64,000 nucleotides of DNA from Bacteroides xylanisolvens XB1A (GTDB lineage Bacteria; Bacteroidota; Bacteroidia; Bacteroidales; Bacteroidaceae), in assembly GCF_000210075.1 (NCBI RefSeq), contig NC_021017.1:2630519-2694518 (forward strand). The letters are read 5' to 3'. This document shows, piece after piece, positions 12,385 through 40,302 of the stretch (position 1 is its first letter; every line of letters starts with the position of its first letter). Below the pieces are notes generated by a model. That model searched no databases, was not told the DNA's origin, and saw nothing but the letters and a program-made list of their open reading frames with translations. Made by a program: the position numbers and the translations under genes.

Positions 12385-13569
12385 TCATTTCACATTCATT
12401 CCTTCAGCCATTGTATACATATCCGGCAAATCGGCAGAGAAAAGCGAAACCGGACTTTCATACATCTTTATAAAACTCTTTTCAGAGGCATGCCCTTTAA
12501 AAACGGAGTAGAAATGCGACTCACTTTCACTAGGATCATATTTGTTTCTCCACATCACAATCATGCTGACAAACTGTCCCGTAGCAGGGGTAAGGATTTG
12601 CTGTGTCCAATAGTTTTTCTCCGGAACACCATCACGTTGAATACCCTCTACTCCGGTTTCTGTAACCCCACACGGTTTTTTCAGTTCTTTTGACAGACGA
12701 GACAAGGTATTCATATTGGTAGTCAGCACAACCGGACTCAAACCATGATAAGAATCCATTCCTAAAAAATCTACATAATCATTGCCGGGCCATCTAAATA
12801 GGAAGTTCTCACGTCCCTGCACAGAATCTATTTGCGGGGAAATCGCATAAATAAGGTTATGCACATTTTTTGTGTCCCGCAAATAATTGACGGTAAACTT
12901 CCAAAAGGAAGTAAATTCATCACTGGTCGTACATGAACTCCCCCACCACGACCATGTTTGGGTATGCTCATGATAAGGGCGGAAAATGACCGGCACTAAT
13001 TCACCATTCTTACCTTTCAAATTCAGTGCAAAATTCGCCAAACGATCCAGCCAAGTTTTAAATTTAAGATGTGTAGGACTTCCCTCTTTAAGAATCTCCT
13101 TCACAACCTCATTACTGGAATTATCCCATGAATCACCTCCGGTCAACGGATTATTCAGATGTGCACATGCAATAAGTACCTCGCCACGCTCATAAGCCTC
13201 TAAAGCGACTCTTTTACGGATTTCATTTTCCGGGTTCTGATAACGATCATCCATTATTTCAGCAACATCAAAACTGAAAACCGCCGGATAGTCACCACAA
13301 ACATCATGAGTGTCGGAGCGTCCTTCCTCATTATACCATTTACGACCATACCAAAGATCATCATGATGTCCGAACATGAAACCTTTTGACTGAATAGCCC
13401 AAAGATTCGAATACAAGGCTTTAGTCTCGGAAGTCGCATTTTTATCTACAATGGAGAGTTCTTTCACTTCTTCATATTCCGGATAAAGCGCCGATACCTC
13501 TTCCACATCGCTACAACTCATAAAGACGGATGCTAATCCGACCAAAAGTATATTGATTTGCTTTTTCAT
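12385..13569 (-). CDS. GH26 beta-mannanase, lipoprotein
   Basis: This 394-residue enzyme of family 26 (clan GH-A) hydrolyses beta-1,4-mannan. The acid/base Glu lies in RPYHEHTQTWSWWG (about residue 200) and the nucleophile Glu in GVTETGVEG (about 305); GHHDDLWYG near the N-terminus is also typical. The signal peptide ends in a lipobox (FMSCSD), so it is membrane-anchored, facing either the surface or periplasm. It is last in the operon running from susC at 22233. Whether it acts endo or releases mannobiose cannot be told from sequence alone. Confidence 0.9.
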   Translation of the reverse strand: MKKQINILLVGLASVFMSCSDVEEVSALYPEYEEVKELSIVDKNATSETKALYSNLWAIQSKGFMFGHHDDLWYGRKWYNEEGRSDTHDVCGDYPAVFSFDVAEIMDDRYQNPENEIRKRVALEAYERGEVLIACAHLNNPLTGGDSWDNSSNEVVKEILKEGSPTHLKFKTWLDRLANFALNLKGKNGELVPVIFRPYHEHTQTWSWWGSSCTTSDEFTSFWKFTVNYLRDTKNVHNLIYAISPQIDSVQGRENFLFRWPGNDYVDFLGMDSYHGLSPVVLTTNMNTLSRLSKELKKPCGVTETGVEGIQRDGVPEKNYWTQQILTPATGQFVSMIVMWRNKYDPSESESHFYSVFKGHASEKSFIKMYESPVSLFSADLPDMYTMAEGMNVK

Positions 13570-17552: not shown

Positions 17553-19091
17553 TTATTCTCTTAAACTTGGATTAAGATTAATCTCGGTTTGCGGCAACGG
17601 ATAGAAAGAATATTGACTTTCATTTAGTCCGGCATCCTTCACTTCTTTGATTTCTCCAATCCTGCCCCAACGACGAATATCGTACATACGATCTCCTTCA
17701 AAAGCCATTTCAAACTTACGTTCTTCATATACTTTCTCCCGGAATTCATCTATCGGCAATCCTGGAGTCAAATCCCCCAATCCTGCCCTATGCCGGATAA
17801 AGTTTATCAGTTCATAAGCCTTGGTAGTCGGGCCGGCAGCTTCGGCATACACCATCGCAATGTCAGTAAAACGAATGAGAAAGGGGCGTGTACTAGTCTT
17901 ATCCCCATCAAATTTGGGATCGATGTATTTTCGGCAGAAGGGGTACTCAAAATCACCGCCATCCGGTTTCCATTCCGCTTTTACCGTTCCATCTTCATTA
18001 TACACCTTGTCCACAATGAGATCTTTCTTACGCAAATCGTTTCCATCAAACTCATTATAGAAATTCATTTCCGTACGATATTCTCCCCAACCGTCATGAG
18101 ATTTTATATATTCATCTTTGTCTCCTTGCTTGATCCAGATAGTAGCACCCTCAATATAAGGAAGGAACATTTTGGATATCTTAGAATATTGTCCTTCTGC
18201 CTCTCCCGTTCTATCCATAGACATCAAGAAAATATTTTCTTTACCGGCAAAGTTCTCTACATCATAAATCTTGAGCAAATCACTTTCAAAACCATACGTA
18301 TTCTGCGGATAATCCGGATCCAATCCTAATGCTCTTCCGGCATAAGTCATAGCATCTTGATAGAGAGAATTGACATCTTTCGCCATTTCCTTGTATAAAG
18401 GCACATTATTTGCTTTGGCAGAAGCTGCATATAAATAGATTTTAGCTAACAAAGCCTGTGCACCGACTCTATCGATACGTCCCATTATGGGGGCAGCGTA
18501 TACAGGCAACAATTCTTCCGCTTTTTTACAATCGTCAATCATCAAATCATAAATCTCATCCATATTATTTGCCAAAGGAGTACCCGTTTGCGACAGTGTC
18601 TCCACTACTCCATAATGCATCGGTACCAAACCGAAGTTACGTGAAAGACAGAAGTAATTGTATGCACGTAAAAAATAAGCTTCACCCAAATACTGATCCT
18701 TTAGCTTGGAATCAATATCCGTACCCGGCATCTTCTTAATGACAGCATTCGCCCGATTAATAGCAATGAATGAGTATTTAAAGAAATTGACCAAAGTAGC
18801 ATTGGTATCAAAGTTATCAATTCTCCACAGATTCAAGGCACGATTATCAACGGAGGCATCTCCTTTAGTAGTCATAATTTCAGTAGGCATATCACCGATG
18901 AAATAAAGAGCACGCGAATACTCGATATAGGTAAGAGTAGCATAAGCGTAATGAATAGCTGCCATTGCATCCCCCTCTGTTTTATAGAAGTTATCTTCGG
19001 AATAGAATCCGTAAGGCTCTTCATCAAGACTGCAACCGGAAAAGCCCAGGATACAGCTTATTAAAATGAAAGTGTATATATTCTTTTTCAT
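17553..19091 (-). CDS. SusD-like outer-membrane lipoprotein (mannan locus)
   Basis: This is a 512-residue SusD/RagB-family lipoprotein (GFSGCSLDEEP). Diagnostic blocks are the early AIHYAYATL, the TPR segment YLGEAYFLRAYNYFCLSRNFG (about 135-155, quoted in part), and the C-terminal YEERKFEMAFEGDRMYDIRRWG (about 455-475). It pairs with the SusC encoded 10 bp upstream as the hinged lid of the transporter. Substrate is inferred as beta-mannan from GH26, GH2 and GH130 neighbours. Confidence 0.92.
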   Translation of the reverse strand: MKKNIYTFILISCILGFSGCSLDEEPYGFYSEDNFYKTEGDAMAAIHYAYATLTYIEYSRALYFIGDMPTEIMTTKGDASVDNRALNLWRIDNFDTNATLVNFFKYSFIAINRANAVIKKMPGTDIDSKLKDQYLGEAYFLRAYNYFCLSRNFGLVPMHYGVVETLSQTGTPLANNMDEIYDLMIDDCKKAEELLPVYAAPIMGRIDRVGAQALLAKIYLYAASAKANNVPLYKEMAKDVNSLYQDAMTYAGRALGLDPDYPQNTYGFESDLLKIYDVENFAGKENIFLMSMDRTGEAEGQYSKISKMFLPYIEGATIWIKQGDKDEYIKSHDGWGEYRTEMNFYNEFDGNDLRKKDLIVDKVYNEDGTVKAEWKPDGGDFEYPFCRKYIDPKFDGDKTSTRPFLIRFTDIAMVYAEAAGPTTKAYELINFIRHRAGLGDLTPGLPIDEFREKVYEERKFEMAFEGDRMYDIRRWGRIGEIKEVKDAGLNESQYSFYPLPQTEINLNPSLRE

Positions 19092-19101
19092 ATCATTTAA
19101 T

Positions 19102-22100
19102 TTAGAATGTTATATCAAGACCTACTGTCCATTTCCTCAAGCGAGGATACCCACCAGAATAAATTCCGTTTTGCCCGACTTCCGGATCATACCCGTCGAA
19201 CTTGGTAAATGTATATAAATTGGAAGCATTCATATATAGGCGTATTTTCGAGGCAAACACTTTCTGTTTAGGCAAATCAAAGGTATACCCTACTGTCAGA
19301 TTCTGAATTCTCACAAAAGAGCCGTCTTCTATCCAATAGTCAGAAAAGCGAGTCTGACGTCCGTCACGCAGACTGGGATATTTGTTAGTCGGGTTGTCAG
19401 GTGTCCAACGGAGTGCAGCATTATGCGGATCACCAAAAGTCTTGGTGTTCAACACATCATTTCCAAACACACCATTCAGGAAAATACTCGCATCCAGTTT
19501 CTTCCAACGGAAAGAAAGATTCAGACTTGCCGTAAAATCAGGATTAGGATCACCGATAATACATTTATCGTTTTCATTCACAACACCTTGTGTCCCGTCC
19601 CCATCATACGTATTGACATATTTGAATTCTCCCGGCATAGCATCTTCTCCCGACAATCCTGCGTTAAGTCCTTCCGGCAAAGTCTGAATAATTCCATCAC
19701 ATTTATATCCATAAAAGACATTGATCGGTTGGCCAATAGCAAGTATATTAGTATAAGAGCGATACTGTTCACTCAAGTTACCGACAACTTCATATTCCAT
19801 TCCCGTACGGGCATCTTTCAATAGACCCGATTCGACACTACTTCCCAAATCAACCACCTTGTTACGGTTCATAGAGAATATAAAAGTTCCATTCAAGCTC
19901 CAATCTTTTTTATCTACCATAACTCCGTCAATCGTTACTTCAAATCCCCGGTTGCGAATCTTACCATCATTCACCCACATGCGGTCATAACCGGAAGAAA
20001 GAGCCAGGTTTCTTTCTCTCAACAGATCAGACGTCTCTTTATTGTAAATATCCAAAGTGACGCGAAGTCTTCTGTTAAAGAAAGCCATATCAATACCAAA
20101 GTCCCATTGCGCAGTTGTCTCCCATTTCAGATCCGGATTAGGAATTCCACTCCAAATTTTCCAGATTCCGTCTTGCCCGGACTGCCCTGACTCATACCCG
20201 GGACCGATAGCAGTCAGCCATTGTCCCTGATGGTAATATTTAGTCGTTCCATAACGGCTAAGAGTCTGATAAGGACTGATTCCCTGATTTCCCGAAATAC
20301 CGTAACTTAAACGAAACTTCAATTCATCAAATGTATTTAGTTTCTTTATAAACTTCTCTTCGTGAGCTTTCCAGCTGATAGCTCCGGAAGGGAAATACCC
20401 CCACTTGTTATTCTTACCGAATTTAGAAGAACCGTCGGCACGAAAAGTGGCAGTAAGCAAATACTTATTATCATAAGTGTAATTCAGACGGGCCATTCCG
20501 GAAACCAGTTTACTTTTCGAGAACCCGTTGGAAATAATATTGTTCGCTTTCTCTCCGGCTCCCATATTCTCATTTCCCAATGCTTCATTCACAAAACCAT
20601 TAGCAGTCAGATACGAATCACGATATTGATACCACTCGTAAGAATGACCTACCATGGCGCCCACTTCATGTTTGCCGAACATTTGAGAGTAATTGGCAAA
20701 TGTTTCGGAAACAAAATTTTGATTCTCTGTGTTACCAATGACTCCCCTACCACGATTCTCCGTACCGACTTGGGTGTATTTCTGTGGCAGATACTGGTCG
20801 TTGGTAGATTTTCCATATTTATAATTCAACTGGCTTGTGAGACGAAGTTGCGGTATCACTTGCCATTCAAAAGCTCCGGATGAGATAACATCCAGCATTT
20901 TGGTTTTATCCTTTTTATGCTCGCGAATAGCGATAGGATGACTATAATCTTGAGCAGTAGTCTGATAATAAGTTCCGTCTTCATTATACACAGGATAAAT
21001 CGGATTTCTCCAATAAGCCATTCCGCCATTGTTATTACGGTTGCCAAGATATAGAATATTGGATGCACGAATCGTAAAGTTCTTATATATCTTATGACTG
21101 ACATTCAGATTATACCCCCCTTTACTATAATCATCATCAATATACATTCCTTGGTCCGTATAATAATTAGCACTCAAGTTAAAACTCGTCTTCTCGTTAG
21201 CACTGGAGACAGAAACTGTTGTATTATTAGACACAGGCGCATCTCTAAACACTAATTCATCCCAACGGGTATTGGTTGTCCAAGTAGTCTGAAGCTCCTC
21301 AATAGACGGGTAATAAACACCGGCAGAATTATTTGCACCGATATAGAGCGGCTGTAATCCACCATTCACACGTCCCTCATTGTTCAACATTGCCATCATC
21401 ACCGGGTCTCTCCACAAATCCAGTTTGGAAGAAAATTCAGAGAAAGTGAGCTGCTGTTTGACAGATACCGTCGTAGTTCCTTCTTTCGCCCTTCGAGTGG
21501 TTACAATTATAACTCCATTAGCACCTCTGGAACCATAAATTGCAGAAGCAGAAGCATCTTTCAATACTTCCATTGAAACAATATCATCGGTATTAATCTG
21601 TTTCAAATCACCGGCATCTCCCAATGGAAAACCATCTACCACAATCAAAGGTGAATTGGATCCGCGCAGCGAACTATTACCACGAATACGAACCGTTGAT
21701 CCGGCTCCCGGATCCTGTGACGAATTGATTACTTGTACACCAGCCGCACGCCCCTGCAACAATCCTTCAACAGAATTAGCCGGTATATCACTTAATGCCT
21801 CCGGCTTTACCGTCGCAACCGATCCCGTCAAATCACTCTTTTTCACCGACCCGTACCCAATGACCACCACCTGATCAAGTAATTGAGTAGCATCACTAAG
21901 TACCGCATTTACCACCTTTTTTCCGGAAACCGATATTTCTATACTATTCATACCTACATAAGAAAACTCTAAAACCCCATTCACCGGCACATTGGCCAGA
22001 GAGTAATTCCCATCAAAATCACTGACTGTTCCTACAGCCGAACCTTTAATTTTAATAGTAGCTCCTATCAGAGGCTCACCTTGTACATCTTTAACCACTC

Positions 22101-22233
22101 CAGTCACAGTAATCTTGGAAGATGTTTGCTCTACCGCAGCCCATGCGGTAGAAAATACGGACAAAAAAAGGCATATCAACACAACTTTGCAGAGTGACAT
22201 GCTACCAAGCCGTTTTTTCTGTTTATTCATCAT
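19102..22233 (-). CDS. SusC-like TonB-dependent transporter (mannan locus)
   Basis: This is a 1043-residue TonB-dependent receptor with a signal peptide (to about residue 32, TAWAAVEQ), carboxypeptidase-regulatory-like domain (about 42-115), TonB box/plug start LLDQVVVIGYGSVKKSDLTGSVATV (about 117), plug hallmark GSRGANGVIIVTTRR, and a barrel ending in WTVGLDITF. It is the first gene of the operon that continues to GH26 and is preceded by the regulated promoter at 22280-22344. The start MMNKQKK leaves a leader of about 40 nt after the -7 box. Confidence 0.93.
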   Translation of the reverse strand: MMNKQKKRLGSMSLCKVVLICLFLSVFSTAWAAVEQTSSKITVTGVVKDVQGEPLIGATIKIKGSAVGTVSDFDGNYSLANVPVNGVLEFSYVGMNSIEISVSGKKVVNAVLSDATQLLDQVVVIGYGSVKKSDLTGSVATVKPEALSDIPANSVEGLLQGRAAGVQVINSSQDPGAGSTVRIRGNSSLRGSNSPLIVVDGFPLGDAGDLKQINTDDIVSMEVLKDASASAIYGSRGANGVIIVTTRRAKEGTTTVSVKQQLTFSEFSSKLDLWRDPVMMAMLNNEGRVNGGLQPLYIGANNSAGVYYPSIEELQTTWTTNTRWDELVFRDAPVSNNTTVSVSSANEKTSFNLSANYYTDQGMYIDDDYSKGGYNLNVSHKIYKNFTIRASNILYLGNRNNNGGMAYWRNPIYPVYNEDGTYYQTTAQDYSHPIAIREHKKDKTKMLDVISSGAFEWQVIPQLRLTSQLNYKYGKSTNDQYLPQKYTQVGTENRGRGVIGNTENQNFVSETFANYSQMFGKHEVGAMVGHSYEWYQYRDSYLTANGFVNEALGNENMGAGEKANNIISNGFSKSKLVSGMARLNYTYDNKYLLTATFRADGSSKFGKNNKWGYFPSGAISWKAHEEKFIKKLNTFDELKFRLSYGISGNQGISPYQTLSRYGTTKYYHQGQWLTAIGPGYESGQSGQDGIWKIWSGIPNPDLKWETTAQWDFGIDMAFFNRRLRVTLDIYNKETSDLLRERNLALSSGYDRMWVNDGKIRNRGFEVTIDGVMVDKKDWSLNGTFIFSMNRNKVVDLGSSVESGLLKDARTGMEYEVVGNLSEQYRSYTNILAIGQPINVFYGYKCDGIIQTLPEGLNAGLSGEDAMPGEFKYVNTYDGDGTQGVVNENDKCIIGDPNPDFTASLNLSFRWKKLDASIFLNGVFGNDVLNTKTFGDPHNAALRWTPDNPTNKYPSLRDGRQTRFSDYWIEDGSFVRIQNLTVGYTFDLPKQKVFASKIRLYMNASNLYTFTKFDGYDPEVGQNGIYSGGYPRLRKWTVGLDITF

Positions 22234-22279: not shown

Positions 22280-22344
22280 CAAATATAGACTATAACCTTT
22301 CATTTTCATTCGCACTATTTACTCTATTATTATACTTTTTTGAA
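22280..22344 (-). promoter_or_regulatory. Mannan-regulon promoter 1 (susC): operator plus -7 box
   Basis: The plus-strand motif ATTATACTTTTTTGAA (22329-22344) lies exactly 41 bp from a minus-strand -7 box TATATTTG (22287-22280). The same motif and the same 41-bp gap recur before the symporter and GH2 genes. No TTTG -33 element is present at the expected place, as expected for an activator-dependent promoter. The likely activator is the AraC-type protein encoded at 25231-26097. Confidence 0.75.
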
Positions 22345-22454
22345 CGATTTAATCTATGATTATCTATTTTTCGCATAGCAACCTCCCCAATGTACACATA
22401 AACAGTGTATACACATCACATTAAAAGACTAAAAGATAAAGGAGATTCAGTTAA

Positions 22455-23480
22455 TTACACCTTGCAGTCGGTCAACAAGTAAGAGAGCAGTTCATTTACA
22501 GAGCAGGTAGCCACGCAGACATACTTATCCGCACTACCATAATACACAAAGAGCGTATCATCCACAATCACATTTCCCGTAGGGAATACACAACCGTTAT
22601 AATACCCGTTTATCTCGAAGTCCTCTTCCGGTTCGAGAATTGATTCATGCGTTTTGGCTAGTATTTTCAGAGGGTTATCCAAGTCGAGCAATAAAGCCCC
22701 CACCCTATAATACCCTTTTCCGCCATGCTCCACACCATGATAGAGCATCAACCAACCCTTGTCCGTTTTCAAGGGAGGAGTACTTCCACCAATCTTTTCC
22801 TCCCAAGTATTTTCACGTCCTGTCAGAAGAAGATGGCTTTCCTTACCCTCCCAATCTAATAAATCATCCGAAAACTTTATCCAGATAGAAGGGTATTCTA
22901 CACCAAATTTTTCGCCAATATACTGCTTGGGGCGATGTAACATAACAAATTGTCCGTTTACCTTCTCGGGAAAAAGAATCACATCGCGATCATCAAGCAC
23001 CGGCGAAGTCAGACGTCCCAAACGGCGAAAATGGCAAAAATCTGTAGTAACAGCCAGCCCAGTATTACCTAAATTCTTAGCAATAGCTGCAGGAGCATAC
23101 TTACCACATTCAGGAAGTAAAACTTCATCATGCCCAAACTTCCAATACTGCCCGGGTGGTACCGGCCGATAGGCATAAGTAATATAATACTCACCATCAA
23201 ACTTCACAATACGAGGATCTTCCACACATCCGGAATCAGGCCCATCGACACTCGGAGAAAAAGCCGGCCGATCCGAGTGTCTTTCAAAATAAAACCCATC
23301 CCTGCTCGTAGCCAATCCCAAGCGGATAACATGTTCTCTATCATTACCTGCAGCACGATATAACATATAAAACATGCCGTTATCATAGAACACGCCAGGA
23401 TTACAAGTCACCAAAGATTCCCAATCATTCTTTTCCGACGGAGAAAGAATCGGGTTTCCTTCAAATTTCTTTAATTTCAT
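22455..23480 (-). CDS. GH130 mannoside phosphorylase
   Basis: This 341-residue five-bladed beta-propeller enzyme of family GH130 uses phosphate to cleave beta-mannosides to mannose 1-phosphate. There is no signal peptide, so it is cytoplasmic. Family features are NPGVFYDNGMFYMLYRAAG, the catalytic-Asp block CVEDPRIVKFDGEYYITYAY (about 90-110), RDVILFPEKVNGQFVMLHRP and LMLYHGVEHG. It lies 14 bp after the symporter gene and is surely co-transcribed. The same pairing occurs in the B. fragilis mannan operon (mannosylglucose phosphorylase), but the 2-epimerase of that pathway is missing here, so it may act on mannobiose or Man-GlcNAc directly. Confidence 0.88.
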   Translation of the reverse strand: MKLKKFEGNPILSPSEKNDWESLVTCNPGVFYDNGMFYMLYRAAGNDREHVIRLGLATSRDGFYFERHSDRPAFSPSVDGPDSGCVEDPRIVKFDGEYYITYAYRPVPPGQYWKFGHDEVLLPECGKYAPAAIAKNLGNTGLAVTTDFCHFRRLGRLTSPVLDDRDVILFPEKVNGQFVMLHRPKQYIGEKFGVEYPSIWIKFSDDLLDWEGKESHLLLTGRENTWEEKIGGSTPPLKTDKGWLMLYHGVEHGGKGYYRVGALLLDLDNPLKILAKTHESILEPEEDFEINGYYNGCVFPTGNVIVDDTLFVYYGSADKYVCVATCSVNELLSYLLTDCKV

Positions 23481-23494
23481 ATATTCTATTTATT

Positions 23495-25081
23495 TTATTG
23501 AAAAATAATCCAAATCAATGCGCTTAACACAAGTAACACCCCTGCCCATACCTGATAGTTCTTATACCAGACTACTGTTTTCAAGGTTACATATTCTTCT
23601 TTCAGATCGCTAAAAGAAAAGGTGGTGTCAGTAAGCTTATCTTTACCCGGAGCCGCATAAAAGAAACTGCTGATGTAAATCACTATTATACTGAATATCA
23701 ACAAGAAAGGAACCATCAATAAAAAGTGCAAATCACCAAAAACCGTATTTTTAAAGAAAAGTAAAAGAACCGCTACTACCAGACCGAGAATCAATCCCAT
23801 AAAAGCTCCGCCACCATTCACTCTCTTATTAAAAATTCCAAGAAGGAAAGCCGCTACGATAGGAGGAGAAATATAAGAAAGCATTTCCTGATAATATTTT
23901 AGAAGAGATCCGAATTTACCAATTTGAGGTGCCCATAATGCAGCTAACAGAATAATCACACAAGAAGCGATTTTACCAACCAGTACCAGCTTTTTTGTAT
24001 CAGCATGTTTATTAAACTTCGCATAAAAATCCATCGTAAACAAAGTAGAAGTAGAATTCAAGATAGCACTAATCGTAGAAGTCAATGCAGACAACAGAGC
24101 AGCCAGCATAATACCCAGCAAACCCACAGGCATTAATTGCATCACCATATTAGGATATACCATATCGGGTTTATCCAAACCTGGAAATAAATCACGGGCA
24201 ATCAATCCGGGAATAGCGATAATAAACAATGTGCTCATCGTGAGAAAACCGGTGAATATAACACCTCTCCGACCTTCATCAATAGTTCTGGCACTCAAAA
24301 CACGTTGTACTAAAGTCTGATTATTAGCCCAGAAGTAAATACCCAATATGGGCATCCCCACGATCAGCCCCAACCAAGGAGTGGCATTATCGGACAACGG
24401 GCGAATCAGCTTCACCAATATATCATCGTTTTCAAACAAATGATAGAAATAACTTCCTCCCTGTTGAAAACAGAAATAGGTAAGCAAAACCGAACCTAAA
24501 ATCAAAACTACCGCCTGTATCAGTTCCGCGTTAATGGCAGAAGAAAGTCCTCCCGGAATTGTATATGAAGCTGCAATAATAGCAAAGACTATAATAATCA
24601 TCTGAAGATCAGCTTCAGGTAATACCAGTTTGATAATTAATGCGGCTGCATAAAGCGCACCGGCAGCATCCAGAAAAATATTTCCGATAATACAAATAGC
24701 GGAAAAGTAGTAACGGGAACGCTTATCAAACCTCTTCTCCAGAAACTCCGGAATCGTAAAGACCTTCGACCTTATATATAAAGGTAGAAGGAAAACAGCA
24801 AAAAACACCATAACCACAATACCGGTCAGGTTATAATTGAAAACGGCAAGTCCCGTATCATAAGCATCACCCGATTGCCCGATAAGCGTAGTACTGGATA
24901 TACTGGCGGCAAACAGAGACAACCCTACAACCCACCAAGGCATGGAACGTCCGGCAAGAAAATACGATTGGGCATCCGAACTCTTTCCGTTCTTTACACC
25001 CCACCATATAATAAATAGCAAATATACGACTACGATTATAATATCAATAGTTCCGATAGAAAATGATTCCATAGCATTCAA
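23495..25081 (-). CDS. Sodium:solute symporter family (SSS) inner-membrane transporter
   Basis: This 528-residue polytopic protein has about 13-14 hydrophobic helices and the SSS hallmarks GLSLFAASISSTTLIG (about 54-69) and the later RVLSARTIDEGRRG. It probably brings mannobiose or another mannoside into the cytoplasm with Na+, feeding the GH130 encoded 14 bp downstream. The first Met (25081) or the Met three codons later (25072) may start it; both suit the -7 box at 25115-25108. In B. fragilis an SSS transporter also accompanies the mannoside phosphorylase. Confidence 0.9.
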   Translation of the reverse strand: MNAMESFSIGTIDIIIVVVYLLFIIWWGVKNGKSSDAQSYFLAGRSMPWWVVGLSLFAASISSTTLIGQSGDAYDTGLAVFNYNLTGIVVMVFFAVFLLPLYIRSKVFTIPEFLEKRFDKRSRYYFSAICIIGNIFLDAAGALYAAALIIKLVLPEADLQMIIIVFAIIAASYTIPGGLSSAINAELIQAVVLILGSVLLTYFCFQQGGSYFYHLFENDDILVKLIRPLSDNATPWLGLIVGMPILGIYFWANNQTLVQRVLSARTIDEGRRGVIFTGFLTMSTLFIIAIPGLIARDLFPGLDKPDMVYPNMVMQLMPVGLLGIMLAALLSALTSTISAILNSTSTLFTMDFYAKFNKHADTKKLVLVGKIASCVIILLAALWAPQIGKFGSLLKYYQEMLSYISPPIVAAFLLGIFNKRVNGGGAFMGLILGLVVAVLLLFFKNTVFGDLHFLLMVPFLLIFSIIVIYISSFFYAAPGKDKLTDTTFSFSDLKEEYVTLKTVVWYKNYQVWAGVLLVLSALIWIIFQ

Positions 25082-25107
25082 TTAGTTATTAAGTATGATT
25101 CACTTTG

Positions 25108-25172
25108 CAAATGTAAGGCATATAATGATAGTTTTTTGATATTATATTGCTTAATAATTATACTTTTTTGAA
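25108..25172 (-). promoter_or_regulatory. Mannan-regulon promoter 2 (symporter-GH130)
   Basis: ATTATACTTTTTTGAA (25157-25172, plus strand) is 41 bp from the minus-strand -7 box TACATTTG (25115-25108). It is identical to the susC copy over 16 bp and shares a flanking half-site (TATATTGCTTAAT) with the GH2 copy. It lies in the divergent region between the symporter and the AraC-type regulator, so the regulator may also control its own gene. Confidence 0.75.
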
Positions 25173-25200
25173 TAGCCTGTTTTTGTATTATTATTATTCG

Positions 25201-25208
25201 TACATTTG
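25201..25208 (+). promoter_or_regulatory. -7 box of the AraC-type regulator gene
   Basis: TACATTTG matches the Bacteroides TAnnTTTG box and lies 22 bp before the ATG at 25231. A TTTG at 25182-25185 is present but its 15-bp spacing is short for a -33 element. Confidence 0.45.
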
Positions 25209-25230
25209 TATCAAGTTAAATACAGTTCTT

Positions 25231-26097
25231 ATGAAAGACATTCAAAAGGAAATTACTCCCATTTCTTCTGATGATTTATTCATCGTTTTAAATCATCCCA
25301 ATGCAAAATTTGATTATCCGGTACATTATCACTCCGACTATGAAATTAATCTTGTGATGAATACGTATGGAGAAAGAATTGTAGGCGATTCAGTCGAAAA
25401 GTTTGACAATCTGGATTTGGTAATGACTGGCCCCAATCTTCCACATGCCTGGAAAGGGGAGATTGTAGAAGGCAATCATGTGGTGACAATTCAGTTCTCG
25501 GACAAATTGCTCAATTTTCCAATATTGGAGAAACGACTATTCAGCCCGATTAAACAACTGTTACTCGACTCACAGAAAGGAATTAGCTTTTCTGAAAACA
25601 CCATGCTGGCAATGAAAGAGAAAATTCTCCAGCTTACCCGGATGCAAGGCTTCCACACCGTTTTAGAGTTTCTCTCTATCTTGTATGATCTCTCCACTGC
25701 CGACAGACATATTTTAGTCAGTAATCTCTATGACACCAAAGACACGATACGTACCTCAAAAAGTAGACGCATTGCAAAAGTCTGCGACTATATAGAGAAG
25801 AATTTTGAAGAACCTATCAAACTGGGAGATGTAGCAGCTCTGGTAAATATGTCGGAATCCGCTTTCAGCCATTTCTTCAGAAAGAAAACAAATTGCACCT
25901 TTATTGACTATATCAACAACCTCCGTGTGGCCCGTGCTTGCCAGATGCTGACTGAAACATCACACACGGTAGCAGAAATCTGCTACTCGTGCGGATTTAA
26001 TAATCTATCGAACTTTATTCGGATATTCAAAAAGAAGAAAGGAAACACACCTAGCGAATACCGTACAATCCTGCAACAGATGTTGATTAAATATTAA
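25231..26097 (+). CDS. AraC-family transcriptional regulator of the mannan locus
   Basis: This 288-residue regulator starts at MKDIQKE (25231); an upstream in-frame Met (25147) lies inside the shared operator and is unlikely. The N-terminal part (FDYPVHYHSDYEINLV, about 26-41) is a cupin-type ligand-binding domain. The C-terminal AraC double helix-turn-helix spans about 180-280 (VCDYIEKNFEEPIKLGDVA... and GFNNLSNFIRIFKKKKGNTPSEYR). The gene lies between the symporter and GH2 genes, divergent from the former. It is the best candidate to bind the motif repeated at three promoters in this locus, probably in response to a mannan-derived sugar inside the cell. Confidence 0.88.
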   Translation: MKDIQKEITPISSDDLFIVLNHPNAKFDYPVHYHSDYEINLVMNTYGERIVGDSVEKFDNLDLVMTGPNLPHAWKGEIVEGNHVVTIQFSDKLLNFPILEKRLFSPIKQLLLDSQKGISFSENTMLAMKEKILQLTRMQGFHTVLEFLSILYDLSTADRHILVSNLYDTKDTIRTSKSRRIAKVCDYIEKNFEEPIKLGDVAALVNMSESAFSHFFRKKTNCTFIDYINNLRVARACQMLTETSHTVAEICYSCGFNNLSNFIRIFKKKKGNTPSEYRTILQQMLIKY

Positions 26098-26107
26098 GTG
26101 CATTTAT

Positions 26108-28711
26108 TTAATATCCATCGACCAACGATTTGATTTTTAGCTGTCGGGAAAAGTCCGTATATGAAATATCGGTACGAACTTTCACTATCTTATCTTTTCC
26201 CGGCATCAAATCGAAATAATTATCTTCAAAGAAATTATCAATTCCATCAAGAGACAAGTATACAGCTCTTGCAAAACGGTCTGCTTTTAAAGTCAATTCA
26301 TATCCGTCAGGCAGTGACTTTAATTGATATGATATATTCACTTGCGGATATAACATCTCCTTTTGCTTCGTCAAGAAATAATTATTTATGTAAATCGTTC
26401 CTTGTTGATCGGTAAGGGTTGCGGAGATAACAAGCTGATTTTCCGGTTGTGATTTTATAAATGAATTCAATTTGTGGGACATAACGACTTTACTTTCATT
26501 AGCAGGAATAGTTACCGATCTTCTGATTGAATTAACAAGCTTTCCTTCCATGTCACAGACTTCCAGTTCCAGTATAGCGCTCGTTTTCCTTAATCTATCA
26601 GATACAATATATACATCAAGCTTGTCATTATTAACTATGGGAGATACAAGCACATCCCGAAAAGCTGCCTTGGCAAAATAATGTTGCGCTTTCCAACGTC
26701 CGTAGTAATCACGGCTCGACCACGAAGCAACCGGCCAGCAATCATTATGTTGCCAAAATAATGTCCCCATACAGTAAGGCATATCCCTGCGATGTGCTTC
26801 AATAGCCGTTTTAATAGCATCCCCTTGCAGTACAAGGTTCATATACAGAAATGATTCGAAATCTTTAGGTTTGCGATATTCGTTCAGCAAATAGTCTTCA
26901 ATCAGTTTGTTCGCGAACTCACCTCCCCGTTGATGAGACATCATTACCTCGGAAGTTATTTCCCAGTCTTCAGGGTGCGGAGCATACATTTTGACCGACT
27001 CAAATTCGGGAAAAGATTGAAAACCATATTCACTAAAGAAACGACTACGCACCTTATTATATTCGGAGATCGGCTTTTTTGCATGCCATACAGCCCAATA
27101 ATGCGTATCTCCTTTATTATTCTCGGAAACTCCGTCATAACGACTGAAGGGCGACGAAGGCCAATAAAATGTTTCAGGGCTATTTTCTGTCACCACTTCC
27201 GGTAGCATTTTATGAAACAGATCTTCATACTGCTGCCAGATAATCCGGGCATACTCCGGATTCTGCTTCACATAGTTTTCTTTCCAATTCCAACCAAACC
27301 AAGCTTCCAGACATTCATTATTACCACACCATAAAGCAAGAGAAGGGTGATTGCGCAAACGGCGAACATTATCAATCGCTTCCTGACGAATATTTCCCAG
27401 CAATTCACCTTCGGAGGGATATACGCTGCAGGCAAACATAAAATCCTGCCACACAAGAATACCATATTTATCGCATAATTCGTAGAAATAATCATCTTCA
27501 TAAGTCCCTCCACCCCACACACGCAAAGTATTCATATTAGCATTGACAGCATCCAGGATCGTTTTCTCATACAGTTCCTTCGTCACACGAGGCAGAAAAT
27601 TATCACAAGGGATATAATTAGCCCCTTTGGAAAATACAGGTATTCCATTAAGTTGAAAATAGAATGATCTTCCCTCTTTATCCTCCTTACGTATAACTTT
27701 TAATGAACGTATTCCTGTAGAAGTTATAAGACAATCCTTATTTTGCTCGTTTGTTTTTACTTCGGTCCGGAATTCATATAGATTGGCTTTTCCGAGTCCA
27801 TTGCTCCACCACAAATTTGGATTCTTTATAAAGAAGTTTACAGCAATCTTATTCAATCCTTTTGTCAGGCAGGTAGTAGTAGCACCATAAATCTTTCCAG
27901 TCTTATTGTCTCTGACCGTAACTTCAGCCTTCTCAATATCTTTATCGGCTAGTATTTCTACAATATTACTAATGTCGGCTTGTTTATAAGAAACCTCTTT
28001 TTGCCGGATAAACACATTTTCTATCCGCAAATCATCCCATGCTTCTAATAAAACAGGTCTCCAGATACCAGAAGTTACCAGGCGAGGTCCCCAGTCCCAA
28101 CCATAATGATAGCCTGCCTTACGGGCAAAAACACTAACCTTTCTATTGAATACTCCTCCATTCTCCGACTGGTCGTTGATTGCCTCATAGTGAAAAGGCA
28201 GCGCATCCCATTTAGGCATATCCCGTTTAATAGGAGAATGGAAATATATCCTTAATTTATTATCCTTTGCTTTCAGTTTATCTTTTACGGGAAGTTTCCA
28301 TTCACGAAACATATTGTCTGCCTCCAATATCTTTTCTCCATTCAAATAGACATCTGCATAAGTATCAAGCCCTTTAAAATAAAGCCGTATATTGTTTTTA
28401 TCCATCAATTCGTGTGCTACATCGAAGGTTGTTTCATAAATCCAGTCTTCCTTATCAACCCACTGTACACCTCTTTCATTTAAGCGATAAAAAGGATCTT
28501 CAATGATTTTATTATCAATCAAGTCAGTGTGTACTACTCCCGGAACTGTAGCAGGATACCAGTTAGAAAGACGAGCTTGTTTAAACCTCCATCCCGAATG
28601 GAGTTCTTTCTGAAGTGTATTGGCAGATATGTTACCATTCAGAGTGGAAAATGTAGTGACCATAGCTAGTGCAACCATCTTTAAATAAATTATCCTTGTT
28701 GATTTTCTCAT
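26108..28711 (-). CDS. GH2 beta-mannosidase, exported
   Basis: This 867-residue family 2 glycosidase removes terminal beta-mannose. The acid/base Glu lies in ALWCGNNECLEAW (about residue 447) and the nucleophile in FFSEYGFQSFPEF (about 543), the signature of GH2 beta-mannosidases such as BtMan2A. The sugar-binding jelly-roll domain begins with WYPATVPGVVHTDL. I chose the Met of MRKSTRIIYLKM (28711), which gives a signal peptide ending around ISA; the earlier Met at 28774 overlaps the -7 box. It is convergent with the regulator gene (10 bp between stops) and has its own regulon promoter. Confidence 0.9.
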   Translation of the reverse strand: MRKSTRIIYLKMVALAMVTTFSTLNGNISANTLQKELHSGWRFKQARLSNWYPATVPGVVHTDLIDNKIIEDPFYRLNERGVQWVDKEDWIYETTFDVAHELMDKNNIRLYFKGLDTYADVYLNGEKILEADNMFREWKLPVKDKLKAKDNKLRIYFHSPIKRDMPKWDALPFHYEAINDQSENGGVFNRKVSVFARKAGYHYGWDWGPRLVTSGIWRPVLLEAWDDLRIENVFIRQKEVSYKQADISNIVEILADKDIEKAEVTVRDNKTGKIYGATTTCLTKGLNKIAVNFFIKNPNLWWSNGLGKANLYEFRTEVKTNEQNKDCLITSTGIRSLKVIRKEDKEGRSFYFQLNGIPVFSKGANYIPCDNFLPRVTKELYEKTILDAVNANMNTLRVWGGGTYEDDYFYELCDKYGILVWQDFMFACSVYPSEGELLGNIRQEAIDNVRRLRNHPSLALWCGNNECLEAWFGWNWKENYVKQNPEYARIIWQQYEDLFHKMLPEVVTENSPETFYWPSSPFSRYDGVSENNKGDTHYWAVWHAKKPISEYNKVRSRFFSEYGFQSFPEFESVKMYAPHPEDWEITSEVMMSHQRGGEFANKLIEDYLLNEYRKPKDFESFLYMNLVLQGDAIKTAIEAHRRDMPYCMGTLFWQHNDCWPVASWSSRDYYGRWKAQHYFAKAAFRDVLVSPIVNNDKLDVYIVSDRLRKTSAILELEVCDMEGKLVNSIRRSVTIPANESKVVMSHKLNSFIKSQPENQLVISATLTDQQGTIYINNYFLTKQKEMLYPQVNISYQLKSLPDGYELTLKADRFARAVYLSLDGIDNFFEDNYFDLMPGKDKIVKVRTDISYTDFSRQLKIKSLVDGY

Positions 28712-28754
28712 AACAACTTTATTGTGTATTAGATTTCCATTTAAAATAACGTTG

Positions 28755-28819
28755 CAAACATAGGCAATTGTCAATCAATATTTTAATACTATATTACTTA
28801 ATCATTATACTTTCTTGAA
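28755..28819 (-). promoter_or_regulatory. Mannan-regulon promoter 3 (GH2)
   Basis: ATTATACTTTCTTGAA (28804-28819) differs from the other two copies at one base and again lies 41 bp from a minus-strand -7 box, TATGTTTG (28762-28755). The flanking TATATTACTTAAT agrees with the symporter copy. Confidence 0.75.
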
Positions 28820-29699: not shown

Positions 29700-32216
29700 T
29701 TATTTAAAAGTAATCATCAACTGTTCATCAACACCTTTATCAGGTATTCTCACACTACAGACACCTGTTTCCTTATCCCAACTCCACGCTACAGTTTCAG
29801 TGTTATTCTCCAGATTTTCTTCCAAACGTTCCGGTTTAGTTTGCTTTATCTTCTTTCCTTTGACAGTTATCTCTTTCGGAGCTTTCGCAGAATAAATACG
29901 GAACAACAGATTTCTCGGACCGGGAACAGTGTATCCTTTTCCTTCACGGGCAGAGACGGTCAGTTCATATCCATTTGCCAGAGTGCTGCAAATAATCGGT
30001 GTTTTGACAAATTCATCACGCTGATATCCTAAGTCTTCTCCTTCATCTTCGTAAAGAGTAAAGGCTGCTTGTGCACCTTCCTGGGCGGGAAAGATTTCAA
30101 AAGTAAGTGGATATACCGGTTTCTCATGGGTGTAGTTCATCACCGGCATGGTGGGGATGATGGAACCTTGCTTCACAAACATGGGAATAGAAGACAAGGG
30201 AGCGTCAACGGTAGTCCATTGCTCTCCGGTGTAGACCGTCTGCTTGTTGTTGTAGTCTATCCATGTGCCTTCGGGAAGATACACGTTCTTTGTGCGAGCA
30301 CCTTTCTTCACCACAGGAGCTACCAACAATTCACGACCGAACAGGAATTGGGCATCCGTGGAGAAAGTTTCCATATCCATTGGATATTCCAGAAACAGAG
30401 GCCGCATGATAGGCAATCCTGTATCATACGCTTCTCGGGCGTAAGTGTAGATATACGGCAACAAACGATATTTCAGCTCGATAGCCGCTTTCGCGTTCTT
30501 TTCCGCTTCCGGCCCGAAAAGCCACGGTTCCACCGGGTTATCTCCCTCATGGTGGATACGACTCAAAGGATTAAATGCTCCGAATTGAATCCAACGGGTA
30601 TAGAGTTCCGCCATAGCCGGATAATCCTCAATATCCCCACAGTAACCGGTGATATCACAGGAAGAAAATGGGATTAATCCCAATCCGGCGGAAAGCATTA
30701 CAGGAATCTGATTGGCTAATTGTCCCCAACCTTGCAGTACGTCGTCTCCGTTTCCGCTATCACCCGTCCAGCCAAACGTATAACGTTGCAAGCCGGCATA
30801 AGCAGCACGAGTCATCTGGAAAACACGACGGTCCGGATTCCTCTTTTCAAATTGCTCCTTTACCACTTTGTCCCAGGTCAGACCATAGACGTTATGGATT
30901 TCATCGTGCATACCGAGATGGTGCTTCATCACCAGGCGTTCCGTCTGCTCCTCGTTACTCCAAGCAGGTTCGCCCATGTCTGTCCAGAAGCCGGAGACAC
31001 CATCGTCAATAGGTTTCTGCTGATAAGTTCCCCACCAGTCGGCTACGGTAGGCAAGGTAAAGTCCACCACTCCGCAGTTCCCACCCCACGGCCAGGGCAT
31101 ATCGTAGCTTTTACCGTTCGTATTGTCCTTTACAAAATAGCCCAGACGGTCTGCTTCTTCCCATTGTTTTTTGTTGGCTTGTGCAATTACCGGGTCTTGA
31201 GATACGACTACCTTAAAACCCATCTCTTTCAAATCCGAAAGCATCTTTTTGGGGTTTTCATAGTTTCCTTTGCGCCATTCGAAATCCTGCAAATATTCTG
31301 TCCAGCCGATATCCTGATAGATAATATCACAAGGTATTCCCCGTTTCCGGTAGCCTTCGGCTATCTCACGACTTAGCTTTTCACTTGTCAACAGACCGCG
31401 GCATTGAGCAAAACCCAACGCCCATTTCGGCGGCATGATAGGTTTTCCAGTCAGTCCGACGTATTGGCTGATGATTTCTTTATAGTCTTTACCGAAGATA
31501 AAGTAATATACCATTTCCCCGTTCGGAGCTTCAAAGCTGTAATAATCACGGCTCTCTGTTCCGAATTTGAATTCCGTCTTATAGGTGTTATCAAGGAAAA
31601 TACCATACCGGTAATTGCTCATAAAGAAAGGAATACTCTTGTAAAGAGGATCTTCTACCACACTATAACAAGGTTTGTCACTATTCCACATCTTATAAGA
31701 CTCGCCACGACGATCCATCTTTCCCGCTTTCTCACCAAGTCCGAAGAAGTGCTCGTCACGACGAAGCACTTTATATTCCACTTTCTTCGTTCCTTCACTG
31801 ACATGGCCTTTATCGGCATAATCACTAAACAGAAGTTTCTGATATTTATCGAATATCTGAAGACTCATCGGAGATTTATTCACCCGGATACGCAACTTCG
31901 GAGTAAATATCTCGTAACAGGCCGCCTGTTCATCCACATGAATAGTTCCTACCTCTTCCAGTTCTTCATTAATCACTGCAAACGAAGCATTTCTTCGTTG
32001 CAATTGCCCGTCGGGTGAGAACCAGATTTTCACGACGGAAGAGCTGCAAAGTTGCAATTGCAAGGCGGCACTGTCCGTCAGGTGAAAAGTCACCTGACGT
32101 CCTTGTTGTGTAAAAGAAGTGCACGTACGTATCTCATTTTCCGCCCAAACCCATGTTGGAAACATCAGACACAACACCCACACCCATAATCTATATCTAA
32201 TCATCATACCTATCAT
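29700..32216 (-). CDS. GH31 alpha-glucosidase (dextran locus)
   Basis: This 838-residue family 31 enzyme should release glucose from isomalto-oligosaccharides. The nucleophile Asp lies in GFWTDMGEP (about residue 405) and the acid/base Asp in GWTGDSGNGDD (about 473). The N-terminal galactose-mutarotase-like domain holds YKVLRRDEHFFGLGEKAGKMDRRG in part, and C-terminal beta domains follow. The signal peptide (VLCLMFPTWVWAEN) points to the periplasm. The start may be Met1 or Met5. It is last in the minus-strand dextran operon, 24 bp after GH66, as in the B. thetaiotaomicron BT_3086-3091 locus. Confidence 0.92.
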   Translation of the reverse strand: MIGMMIRYRLWVWVLCLMFPTWVWAENEIRTCTSFTQQGRQVTFHLTDSAALQLQLCSSSVVKIWFSPDGQLQRRNASFAVINEELEEVGTIHVDEQAACYEIFTPKLRIRVNKSPMSLQIFDKYQKLLFSDYADKGHVSEGTKKVEYKVLRRDEHFFGLGEKAGKMDRRGESYKMWNSDKPCYSVVEDPLYKSIPFFMSNYRYGIFLDNTYKTEFKFGTESRDYYSFEAPNGEMVYYFIFGKDYKEIISQYVGLTGKPIMPPKWALGFAQCRGLLTSEKLSREIAEGYRKRGIPCDIIYQDIGWTEYLQDFEWRKGNYENPKKMLSDLKEMGFKVVVSQDPVIAQANKKQWEEADRLGYFVKDNTNGKSYDMPWPWGGNCGVVDFTLPTVADWWGTYQQKPIDDGVSGFWTDMGEPAWSNEEQTERLVMKHHLGMHDEIHNVYGLTWDKVVKEQFEKRNPDRRVFQMTRAAYAGLQRYTFGWTGDSGNGDDVLQGWGQLANQIPVMLSAGLGLIPFSSCDITGYCGDIEDYPAMAELYTRWIQFGAFNPLSRIHHEGDNPVEPWLFGPEAEKNAKAAIELKYRLLPYIYTYAREAYDTGLPIMRPLFLEYPMDMETFSTDAQFLFGRELLVAPVVKKGARTKNVYLPEGTWIDYNNKQTVYTGEQWTTVDAPLSSIPMFVKQGSIIPTMPVMNYTHEKPVYPLTFEIFPAQEGAQAAFTLYEDEGEDLGYQRDEFVKTPIICSTLANGYELTVSAREGKGYTVPGPRNLLFRIYSAKAPKEITVKGKKIKQTKPERLEENLENNTETVAWSWDKETGVCSVRIPDKGVDEQLMITFK

Positions 32217-32240
32217 TTTAGTTATTCTGTAGCAGCCACT

Positions 32241-34019
32241 TTATTCAGCCACAATCATCGTCCAATATTTCAGGGAAGGCAATGTGAAAGAGACAACTCC
32301 ATTCTCCTGTGTAAAGGCCAATTCCTGCAAAGCCCCTCCGTGTACATCCGGCGACGCTACCCACAGCTTATTCACCTTTGCCGACAGATTCATTTGCAAA
32401 GCCGCTTTTGTAATCAAAGCCGGTTCCGGCATCGTACCGTCCACATCTCTCCAGCTAAGGCTGTTCGCTTGCGAGAAATTAAGAAGATGTATCACTTGCT
32501 TGCCACCTACCTGCTTGGCATAAGTAGTAACCGATCCCTGTTGAGGAGGCCAACTATTCAATCTCATTTCGCCATTGGTACAATTCATGGAAACACTATT
32601 CTCTGTACCACCGTCACGAAGCAGGTTTTGATAAGAAGTCAGGAAATCATAATAACGAACCATCGCTGTTTTCAATTCTTCGCTCATTGTCAGGTTCTCA
32701 TTCGGAAAGTACTCTTTGCACAACATGTGATCGCCTCCCAACTCAAGGTGCGAACCACCCAAAGCAAACATGACAGCATCCGTCAGCAGAATACCCGGCG
32801 TATTAAATTCTCCCCGGTTATCCGCTTTATTATAATTCATATAAGCTGCAAAAACCGTATTCAACTGATAATTGCCATAGACTCCATTTTCATAAAGAAT
32901 GGCTTTCAGATTGGTAAAATCAGCCTCATCCGCCCACACCTCATTATAGAAGAAATCAACTTTACCTGTCTCCCCTATCTGACGGGCACCGTAACGGCTG
33001 ACCGCATTCATCACCAAACTCTTGTCCGGATGAGCCTGCTTCGTCGCTTCAATAAAAGAAGCATATCCCTCACGCAGATTGACCGGAATACCGTTGTAAT
33101 TGTAAAGCGTGCTGCGTCGTCCCAACTGGTCTATCTGATAGCCGTCGAAGGCAAAGTTCGCATATACATCATCATTCCTTTCGTTCAAATATTTCTGCCA
33201 TTCCTTATTAGAAGGATCTACCAGATAAATATTACTTTTCCATCCGCCCGGCAGATCATGACTGTCTTTAGTAGTGTGAGAAGCATCCTTAAACAAATAC
33301 CATTCCTCCTTCACCCCGTCCGCAGCGGCATCCTTCAACGCCCCAAAACAAAGATTGTAAAACATAGACTTCATACCGAAACGATGCTGCGCTTCAATGT
33401 AATTCTTCACAGAACTTGTATAAACCTCCCGGTTAGCGATGTCCATATATACTTCGTCCAACTGCGTACGTGTACCGCCCAACGGCCAGTGATGTTTATT
33501 ATGCCAGTCCTGAAACTGTACCCAATTGATGTGATGACGATTCAGATACGCCATCTCTTCCTGTGTCTTTTCGGCTGTCTTCTCCCGACTGAAATCAGCG
33601 ACAAAACCATAACGCGGAAAACGTGCCGGATCACTGGATACATCTACCGCAATCGTACCGACAATTACATCCGTACCATTCTCCTGACGATACAGTTCCG
33701 CCATATATCCTTTGAAATCAGTAGTAGGCGGTTGCCATATCCAGCTCGTACCATTTACCGACTCTTCTCCGACAACCTCCCCTAAAAGACGATAGCGAAC
33801 TTTAGTTCCGGCAGGCAACGCATCTTCTGCTGTAAATACCACTTTCTCCCCCGGTTTATAGAAAGCCTTATCCGTAGACAGGTCCACACTTAAATCCGAT
33901 GTTACCGGAGTCACTTCGGTGACACTGCCCGAAGCTCCTCCATTCTCTTGGTTCGACCCATGATCGTCACTGCAAGCCATACACAGAAAAGCAGCCACCC
34001 AATATATTATTTTCTTCAT
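32241..34019 (-). CDS. GH66 endo-dextranase, lipoprotein
   Basis: This 592-residue family 66 enzyme cleaves alpha-1,6-glucan (dextran) internally. The nucleophile Asp lies in FAFDGYQIDQLGRR (about residue 310) and the acid/base Glu in FFYNEVWADEADF (about 370); FVADFSREKTAEKTQEEM and HHINWVQFQDWHNKHHWPLGG (in part) at about 150-190 are family blocks. An N-terminal Ig-like domain precedes the barrel. A lipobox (LCMACSDD) suggests surface display, fitting the role of generating oligosaccharides for SusC/SusD import. No cyclisation-associated insert is evident. Confidence 0.92.
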   Translation of the reverse strand: MKKIIYWVAAFLCMACSDDHGSNQENGGASGSVTEVTPVTSDLSVDLSTDKAFYKPGEKVVFTAEDALPAGTKVRYRLLGEVVGEESVNGTSWIWQPPTTDFKGYMAELYRQENGTDVIVGTIAVDVSSDPARFPRYGFVADFSREKTAEKTQEEMAYLNRHHINWVQFQDWHNKHHWPLGGTRTQLDEVYMDIANREVYTSSVKNYIEAQHRFGMKSMFYNLCFGALKDAAADGVKEEWYLFKDASHTTKDSHDLPGGWKSNIYLVDPSNKEWQKYLNERNDDVYANFAFDGYQIDQLGRRSTLYNYNGIPVNLREGYASFIEATKQAHPDKSLVMNAVSRYGARQIGETGKVDFFYNEVWADEADFTNLKAILYENGVYGNYQLNTVFAAYMNYNKADNRGEFNTPGILLTDAVMFALGGSHLELGGDHMLCKEYFPNENLTMSEELKTAMVRYYDFLTSYQNLLRDGGTENSVSMNCTNGEMRLNSWPPQQGSVTTYAKQVGGKQVIHLLNFSQANSLSWRDVDGTMPEPALITKAALQMNLSAKVNKLWVASPDVHGGALQELAFTQENGVVSFTLPSLKYWTMIVAE

Positions 34020-34033
34020 CTTGAATTCTTGTT

Positions 34034-35551: not shown

Positions 35552-35584
35552 ATTATTTGTCTAAATGAATGATTATAAAACGGA

Positions 35585-37075: not shown

Positions 37076-37090
37076 ATTCTTTCTCCTGAT

Positions 37091-40090: not shown

Positions 40091-40165
40091 GTACATTAAT
40101 TTAAAGTTAATATTAGGGTTACTTTTGTTTTCGTTCTCTGTGTCATTGCTGAAATGACCGTGAAA

Positions 40166-40251
40166 CAAAAGTATCCACATTTCATACTGCTTCTTAAAGC
40201 AGATAGCAAAAATATAGTGATTTATACAGTGTCTCACAGCATAAACCACTA
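40166..40251 (-). promoter_or_regulatory. Dextran susC promoter with two palindromic operators
   Basis: On the minus strand TTTA (40198-40195), 21 bp, then TACTTTTG (40173-40166) form a Bacteroides-like promoter. The 16-bp palindrome CTGCTTCTTAAAGCAG (40187-40202) overlaps the -33 element. Just upstream a 37-bp imperfect palindrome spans 40215-40251 with arms TAGTGATTTAT and ATAAACCACTA (10 of 11 matching). A further half-site TAGTGATTT recurs at 40292-40300, inside the stop region of the regulator gene. A second possible -7 box, TATTTTTG, is at 40214-40207. The SusR-like regulator encoded next door is the likely ligand. Confidence 0.6.
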
Positions 40252-40302
40252 AATATAAGAACGTTATAAAATAGAAGTCAGACTAAAAAAGTAGTGATTT
40301 TC

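Follow-up and report, generated by a model that had tools for sequence, protein, structure and literature searches.

A window of 64,000 nt from Bacteroides xylanisolvens XB1A, to which all coordinates refer unless another locus is named, contains a set of genes that, on family assignments, fits β-mannan utilisation: a SusC/SusD pair accompanied by GH26, GH130, and GH2 proteins, together with a symporter and a divergent gene for an AraC-type regulator (araC; Table 1). The subject here is a short DNA element, a candidate operator of this regulator, which occurs ahead of the susC operon, in the symporter-araC gap, and ahead of the GH2 gene. Read from gaps of 7–17 bp, the susC operon comprises susC, susD, 16559–17536, 15078–16541, 13583–15070, and the GH26 gene; three of its proteins have no Pfam match at 1e-3.

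A motif at fixed distance from three promoters

The 16-bp motif ATTATACTTTYTTGAA is found at all three positions given by the initial annotation, and in each case CAAANNTA, the minus-strand form of TAnnTTTG, lies 41 bp away as that annotation had reported. Bacteroides promoters carry TAnnTTTG at −7 and TTTG near −33 (PMC7366714). Of these canonical sigma-ABfr features, the three units possess the −7 box, while the TTTG of the −33 box was not found. A search for TTTG, NTTG, or TTGN at spacers of 14–26 upstream of the three −7 boxes found none, bearing out the earlier claim that a proper −33 box is missing.

The motif is rare in its own genome (5,976,145 bp, searched with the reversed pattern as control). 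The 16-mer has three exact matches, every one in the mannan locus. With up to two mismatches, 34 matches were obtained versus 46 for the control; loose matches are thus background, which leaves the exact and composite forms as the informative ones. The 65-bp composite CAAANNTA-N41-RTTRTACTTTYTTGAA gave three perfect matches, all at this locus, and then just two more, at three mismatches (control, 1 + 1). The worry that the motif might be common without the spacing was therefore dispelled. The sole one-mismatch match to the 16-mer elsewhere, C1:5894393, was considered as a fourth site and dropped because it sits in a coding frame, as judged by eye. When plasmids were searched with the sequence of the intergenic region, no match was returned.

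Table 1. Genes, half-sites, and promoter boxes of the mannan locus, with two sites from genome G284.
Feature	Position	Strand	Remark
GH26 (mannanase family)	12385..13569	-	
SusD-like lipoprotein	17553..19091	-	
SusC-like TonB-dependent transporter	19102..22233	-	
−7 box, susC operon	22280..22287	-	TATATTTG
Proximal (weak) half-site, susC promoter	22309..22323	+	degenerate, 6/15 match; 8/15 one base over
Distal (strong) half-site, susC operon	22329..22344	+	ATTATACTTTTTTGAA
GH130 phosphorylase-like protein	22455..23480	-	
SSF-family sodium/solute symporter	23495..25072	-	start read from sequence; searches used 25069
−7 box, symporter-GH130 unit	25108..25115	-	TACATTTG
Proximal half-site, symporter promoter	25137..25151	+	9/15 match
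Distal half-site, symporter-araC gap	25157..25172	+	ATTATACTTTTTTGAA
Divergent araC −7 box	25201..25208	+	TACATTTG, 28 bp from distal half-site
araC, 288-aa regulator	25231..26097	+	predicted N-terminal jelly-roll sensor and AraC-type HTH
GH2 with mannosidase Ig domains	26108..28711	-	start read from sequence; searches used 28729
−7 box, GH2	28755..28762	-	TATGTTTG
Proximal half-site, GH2 promoter	28784..28798	+	9/15 match
Distal half-site before GH2	28804..28819	+	ATTATACTTTCTTGAA
G284 site ending TTGCT, not TTGAA	L161 8583-8598		
G284 site ending TTGCT, not TTGAA	L162 10734-10749		

Conservation of spacing and operator structure

A contig scan recovered 23 loci, of which L051–L066 are orthologous (68–100% identity), L072 is partial, and six others are relatives at 39–43%; an AraC-type protein 100% identical to the one studied here is present in a record of Bacteroides acidifaciens DSM 15896. 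A motif site (≤1 mismatch) lies inside the symporter-araC gap in 16/16 orthologous loci. A second site heads the next unit in 12 of the 16, a unit that begins with susC in ten loci and with a gene of the 13583 type in two (L060, L061). In L054, L062, and L065 the gene after GH130 begins within about 30 bp and no site is found there. Where genes are rearranged, the sites stay with the first gene of each transcription unit, with the exception of one gap in L056 discussed below. These orthologous loci lend strong support to the cis-regulon proposed by the initial annotation and tie it to the araC locus, AraC itself being the presumed binder.

Spacing was evaluated in 23 loci (L051–L066, L072, L022, L084, L075, L076, L080, L081), leaving out duplicates and paralogs at ≤52% identity, from which 39 distinct motif sites (≤1 mismatch) were gathered regardless of box. 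A perfect CAAANNTA box stands at 41 bp in 32 of them, at 42 bp in one, and at 43 bp in another, and no perfect box occurs at any other distance between 20 and 64 bp. The remaining five sites show a one-mismatch box at 41 bp (three sites) or none (two sites). Among 27 divergent sites, defined as differing at >20 of 80 bases, the 21 bp adjoining the box were 29.5% identical versus 28.6% at random, and the distal half was 88.8% identical, a value due in part to the choice of these sites for a box and a distal motif (≤1 mismatch), from which the spacer and proximal figures are free. With the sequence next to the box at random identity, it is the spacing itself that is kept.

Scanning upstream across the same 27 sites with a weight matrix built from the distal half gave a best mean score of −14.4 at −21 bp, followed by −18.9 at −18, with the median over offsets near −27 and the best of 2000 shuffles at −18.6 (0/2000 as high). 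This peak, together with a better-conserved block spanning about −20 to +15 (34 sites), indicates that the operator is a direct repeat of 21-bp period, whose distal half is strong and whose proximal half is weak. An inverted-repeat structure was rejected, since reverse-complement scores gave no outstanding peak. The proximal half ends 21 bp from the −7 box, at the expected position of the Bacteroides −33 box. At the symporter and GH2 promoters it matches at a level (9/15) met by 1.1% of background positions. The flanking half-site of the initial annotation, TATATTRCTTAAT, is indeed present in two copies, beginning 14 bp before the motif, and degenerate at susC; it is better described as this weaker direct repeat than as a mere flank.

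The site in the symporter-araC gap is phased to two promoters. On its araC side, a TAnnTTTG box lies at 28 bp in 13 of 20 loci and at 29 bp in four, and is missing or elsewhere in three, some of the 20 loci being near-identical. Between the motif and the araC ATG there are 56–99 bp in all but one of the 20 loci, the exception being L065 with 255 bp; set against the steady 28–29 bp, this variability indicates that promoter spacing is what is kept. From the phasing of the symporter site to the divergent −7 box, araC is probably autoregulated. The GH2 gene directly follows araC in L064, an arrangement that would make sense if the araC promoter were also induced. Genome G425 has a second motif copy (L156 3355-3370, equal to L084 2403-2418) that lacks a box at 41 bp and lies 8 bp away from TATATTTG, the −7 box of araC; binding at this copy might block araC.

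The AraC-type regulator as candidate activator

The C-terminal part of the AraC protein is an AraC-type double helix-turn-helix (HTH; PF12833, 3.8e-25; PF00165, 2e-18). No Pfam cupin match was obtained at E≤1, and the cupin-like sensor is called from the AlphaFold2 model (30 sequences, pLDDT 84.6), which consists of an N-terminal jelly-roll, a helical linker, and the double HTH, with strands at 17–89 followed by helices. Foldseek related the whole model to AraC-family structures (E about 1e-10, TM about 0.4, domains placed differently) and the sensor to the RhaR regulatory domain (TMt 0.63), AraC with arabinose (2arc, E 5e-4), and the lactose sensor BgaR. The predicted fold and these relatives suggest that the protein is likely a cytoplasmic sugar sensor.

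The distribution of the composite across genomes follows that of the locus. At ≤1 mismatch it was found in 12 of 149 genus genomes (24 sites; reversed control, 0), and these same 12 hold araC (1e-65), GH130 (1e-100), and the symporter (1e-150); it was absent from the 137 genomes without araC at 1e-65. The genus-genome set overlaps the locus set, several loci having identical coordinates. When the 13 window proteins were compared with the 16 orthologous loci, only araC, GH130, and the symporter matched in all 16, and araC is the sole regulator among the three. G185 (87% complete) has a GH130 at 66%; an araC is missing at 1e-60, and the 5.4-kb contig carries no site. All 19 genomes preselected for the locus carried the composite, with 41 sites at ≤2 mismatches against five for the control; there, sites beside araC were expected, and the others are new. 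These extra sites precede GH3 then GH2 (L138), a SusC (L141), esterases of the SASA (L055) and CE2 (L056) types, and a secreted protein then GH26 (L139). Two more in L139, and those in L142 and L072, stand before genes whose Pfam results say little, and one in L140/L143 is unassigned.

Taken together, we infer at a probability of roughly 0.78 that the product of araC, an AraC-family regulator, has its operators at the three sites, where it would bind and, with a ligand, activate a β-mannan regulon. Its presumed cytoplasmic ligand is a breakdown product of mannan that has been imported; the protein would occupy the nearly invariant distal half RTTRTACTTTTTTGAA and the weaker proximal half, 21 bp or two helical turns apart. 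The bound protein would then replace the missing −33 contact of sigma-ABfr, so that the susCD-GH26 operon, the symporter-GH130 unit, and the GH2 β-mannosidase would be switched on together. The symporter-araC site would probably also set araC's own promoter, upward or downward.

Several observations weigh against this proposal. The choice of activation over repression is suggested by two features, the position of the sites and the missing −33 box. The susC proximal half is barely recognisable, its 6/15 matches being reached by 25% of background positions (8/15 with a one-base shift). The 41-bp rule has exceptions, with the box at 42 bp in L064 and at 43 bp in one L056 site, boxes with one mismatch in L059, L062, and L080, and the two sites without a box; related sites are, moreover, not independent samples. 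The L056 gap after GH130 has no site although it measures 285 bp by BLAST extents, or about 215 bp if the gene start is extrapolated from a match beginning at residue 24. Finally, co-occurrence was rejected as proof of AraC binding: the 12 genomes that have araC also have the symporter and GH130, so co-occurrence does not single out AraC as the binder.

The AraC protein might instead bind these sites as a repressor, or alternate between repression and activation like Escherichia coli AraC, which we regard as unlikely. One site common to two divergent promoters, with spacing fixed to both, is compatible with such a role, as is the second copy in G425, whose place so close to the araC −7 box is where a block of araC would be expected. 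However, all three window promoters lack a −33 box, which suggests the need for an activator. At activated AraC-type promoters the proximal half-site abuts the −33 position, as it does here.

Less probable still is that the motif is the operator of another regulator, a global Crp-like or a hybrid two-component system (HTCS) protein, the adjacent araC being incidental. An unlinked factor is compatible with the linkage, since the motif co-occurs with each of symporter, GH130, and araC, and a further local regulator among the other genes of the orthologous loci is conceivable. A global factor, however, would be expected to have sites elsewhere, and is disfavoured by a genome that holds only these three composite sites; the absence of the composite from genomes without araC points the same way. 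A two-turn direct repeat has also been reported for AraC-type DNA-binding domains (PMC3878776, PMC3870299). In G284, furthermore, where AraC is only 52% identical, the sites before GH130 and araC (3 and 4 mismatches) change together, both ending in TTGCT with the 41 bp kept. Helix 1 of this AraC reads TESGFCH instead of SESAFSH, and the altered first recognition helix with the altered sites could reflect co-evolution of protein and operator. Recognition-helix covariation was set aside as a lead only, with one genome for helix 1, and the second-helix change SNFIR to SNFNR was discarded because L084 combines SNFNR with TTGAA sites, so that the change does not track the motif.

A reading of the motif as an extended core promoter element, or as an A+T-rich repeat arisen by chance, is scarcely credible: the motif is A+T rich and its loose matches are common, if fewer than for the reversed control, but the composite is unique, conserved across relatives at a spacing fixed over a randomised spacer, and absent from the 137 genus genomes without araC.

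Relation to known systems and neighbouring genes

E. coli AraC acts at araI1-I2 through tandem sites, the stronger distal and the weaker next to the promoter, with a divergent regulator gene. The regulator described here shares this arrangement of strong-distal and weak-proximal sites and a divergent gene, as well as the combination of sensor and HTH. The two proteins are alike in sequence in the HTH (2k9s, 1.7e-10) and by fold only in the sensor, and sigma-ABfr rather than sigma-70 is involved here.

Direct repeats of 21 bp are already known for HTCS proteins and for the AraC-family rhamnose regulator of Bacteroides (PMC3878776, PMC3870299). In the HTCS regulons of Bacteroides thetaiotaomicron, whose regulated units include susC/susD genes, tandem direct repeats lie on average 21 bp apart; at the α-mannan HTCS_Man sites a 5-bp spacer separates 16-bp repeats (Ravcheev et al. 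2013, PMC3878776). These regulons have in common with ours the AraC-type DNA-binding domain, the 21-bp tandem repeats, and susC/susD targets (PMC3878776). In contrast to a membrane hybrid kinase, the regulator here is a one-component protein of 288 aa whose sensor is predicted to be a jelly-roll; Pfam assigns it HTH families only, with none of the periplasmic sensor, histidine kinase, and receiver of an HTCS. Unlike in HTCS_Man, GH26, GH130, and GH2 point to β-mannan. The rhamnose regulator has a predicted direct repeat of 21-bp periodicity and is likewise of the AraC family, whereas regulon, motif, and sugar differ (PMC3870299). SusR-like tandem sites are 67 or 77 bp apart (PMC3878776), a layout not seen here, where the period is 21 bp among offsets scanned to 45 bp.

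The β-mannan-induced polysaccharide utilisation locus (PUL) of Muricauda sp. MAR_2010_75 contains SusCD, GH26, a symporter, a predicted GH130, and an expressed AraC-type regulator (PMC9860051), all of which have counterparts here. It differs in also having an HTCS, GH27, and an epimerase, and its operator is not described in the available text (PMC9860051). A literature search whose coverage excluded most subscription journals and RegPrecise yielded, in the text accessible, nothing on this regulator, the motif, the 41-bp phase lock, or the double phasing, and the available portions of PMC10766802, PMC12125979, and PMC12596196 contain nothing on this regulator.

A similar layout may extend beyond these orthologs. 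A different 21-bp tandem repeat occurs upstream of susC in L068 (15011), L069 (10916), and L071 (15115), near AraC paralogs of 39–40% identity; it reads TTACACTTTTTTA, followed by TAACACTTTTTTGCA in two of the three, again 41 bp from CAAANNTA. This observation hints that the layout is general. Of the 34 AraC paralog loci scanned (39–52% identity), only these three had a convincing repeat at 41 bp and 29 gave none, which is no fair negative, as 28 of the 34 had ≤about 1.5 kb of flank per side; matches in L025 and L038 were judged unlike the motif or of low complexity. We tentatively suggest, at somewhat less than even odds, a Bacteroidota-wide grammar of one-component AraC glycan regulators, consisting of a 21-bp tandem operator, a weak proximal half that replaces the −33 box, a 41-bp phase, and a 28–29-bp lock to the divergent regulator promoter. 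For one-component β-mannan control in gut Bacteroides and other Bacteroidales, the locus offers an operator sequence together with its candidate regulator and regulon. The 41 bp fixed over a random spacer are uncommonly clear evidence that in this phylum the half-site of an activator may take the place of the −33 element, and the composite can serve as a search pattern for other loci.

The initial annotation had described coordinated import, phosphorolysis, and β-mannosidase. The shared operator before the three units agrees with coordination, and the term phosphorolysis has to stay vague: the nearest solved structure to the GH130 protein is a 1,2-β-oligomannan phosphorylase (9fj8, 9.4e-59), 4-O-β-mannosyl-glucose phosphorylases score lower (5ay9, 3.5e-21), and the protein falls below curated NCBIfam cut-offs. 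A closer relation to β-1,2-mannan phosphorylases than to β-1,4 enzymes is unexpected beside GH26.

Within the susC operon, 13583–15070 and 15078–16541 (both minus strand) encode predicted lipoproteins that are paralogs of each other (37% identity) and lack a Pfam match at 1e-3. PF00150 reached 0.0012 at best, in 4 of 12 aligned members, and the alignment has an invariant N-E-P and a later G-E. The 13583–15070 protein was modelled as a TIM barrel plus a β domain (pLDDT 83.7), which Foldseek places near GH30/GH79/GH39 at about 10–15% identity. The pair is a candidate for an unclassified clan GH-A family.

A second glycan locus at 29700–41952 (minus strand) encodes GH31, GH66 (dextranase family), SusE/F, SusD, SusC, and a DUF6377 protein, and has no match to the motif at up to three mismatches. 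Beside it, 42141–43169 (minus strand) encodes a Fic/DOC-family protein.

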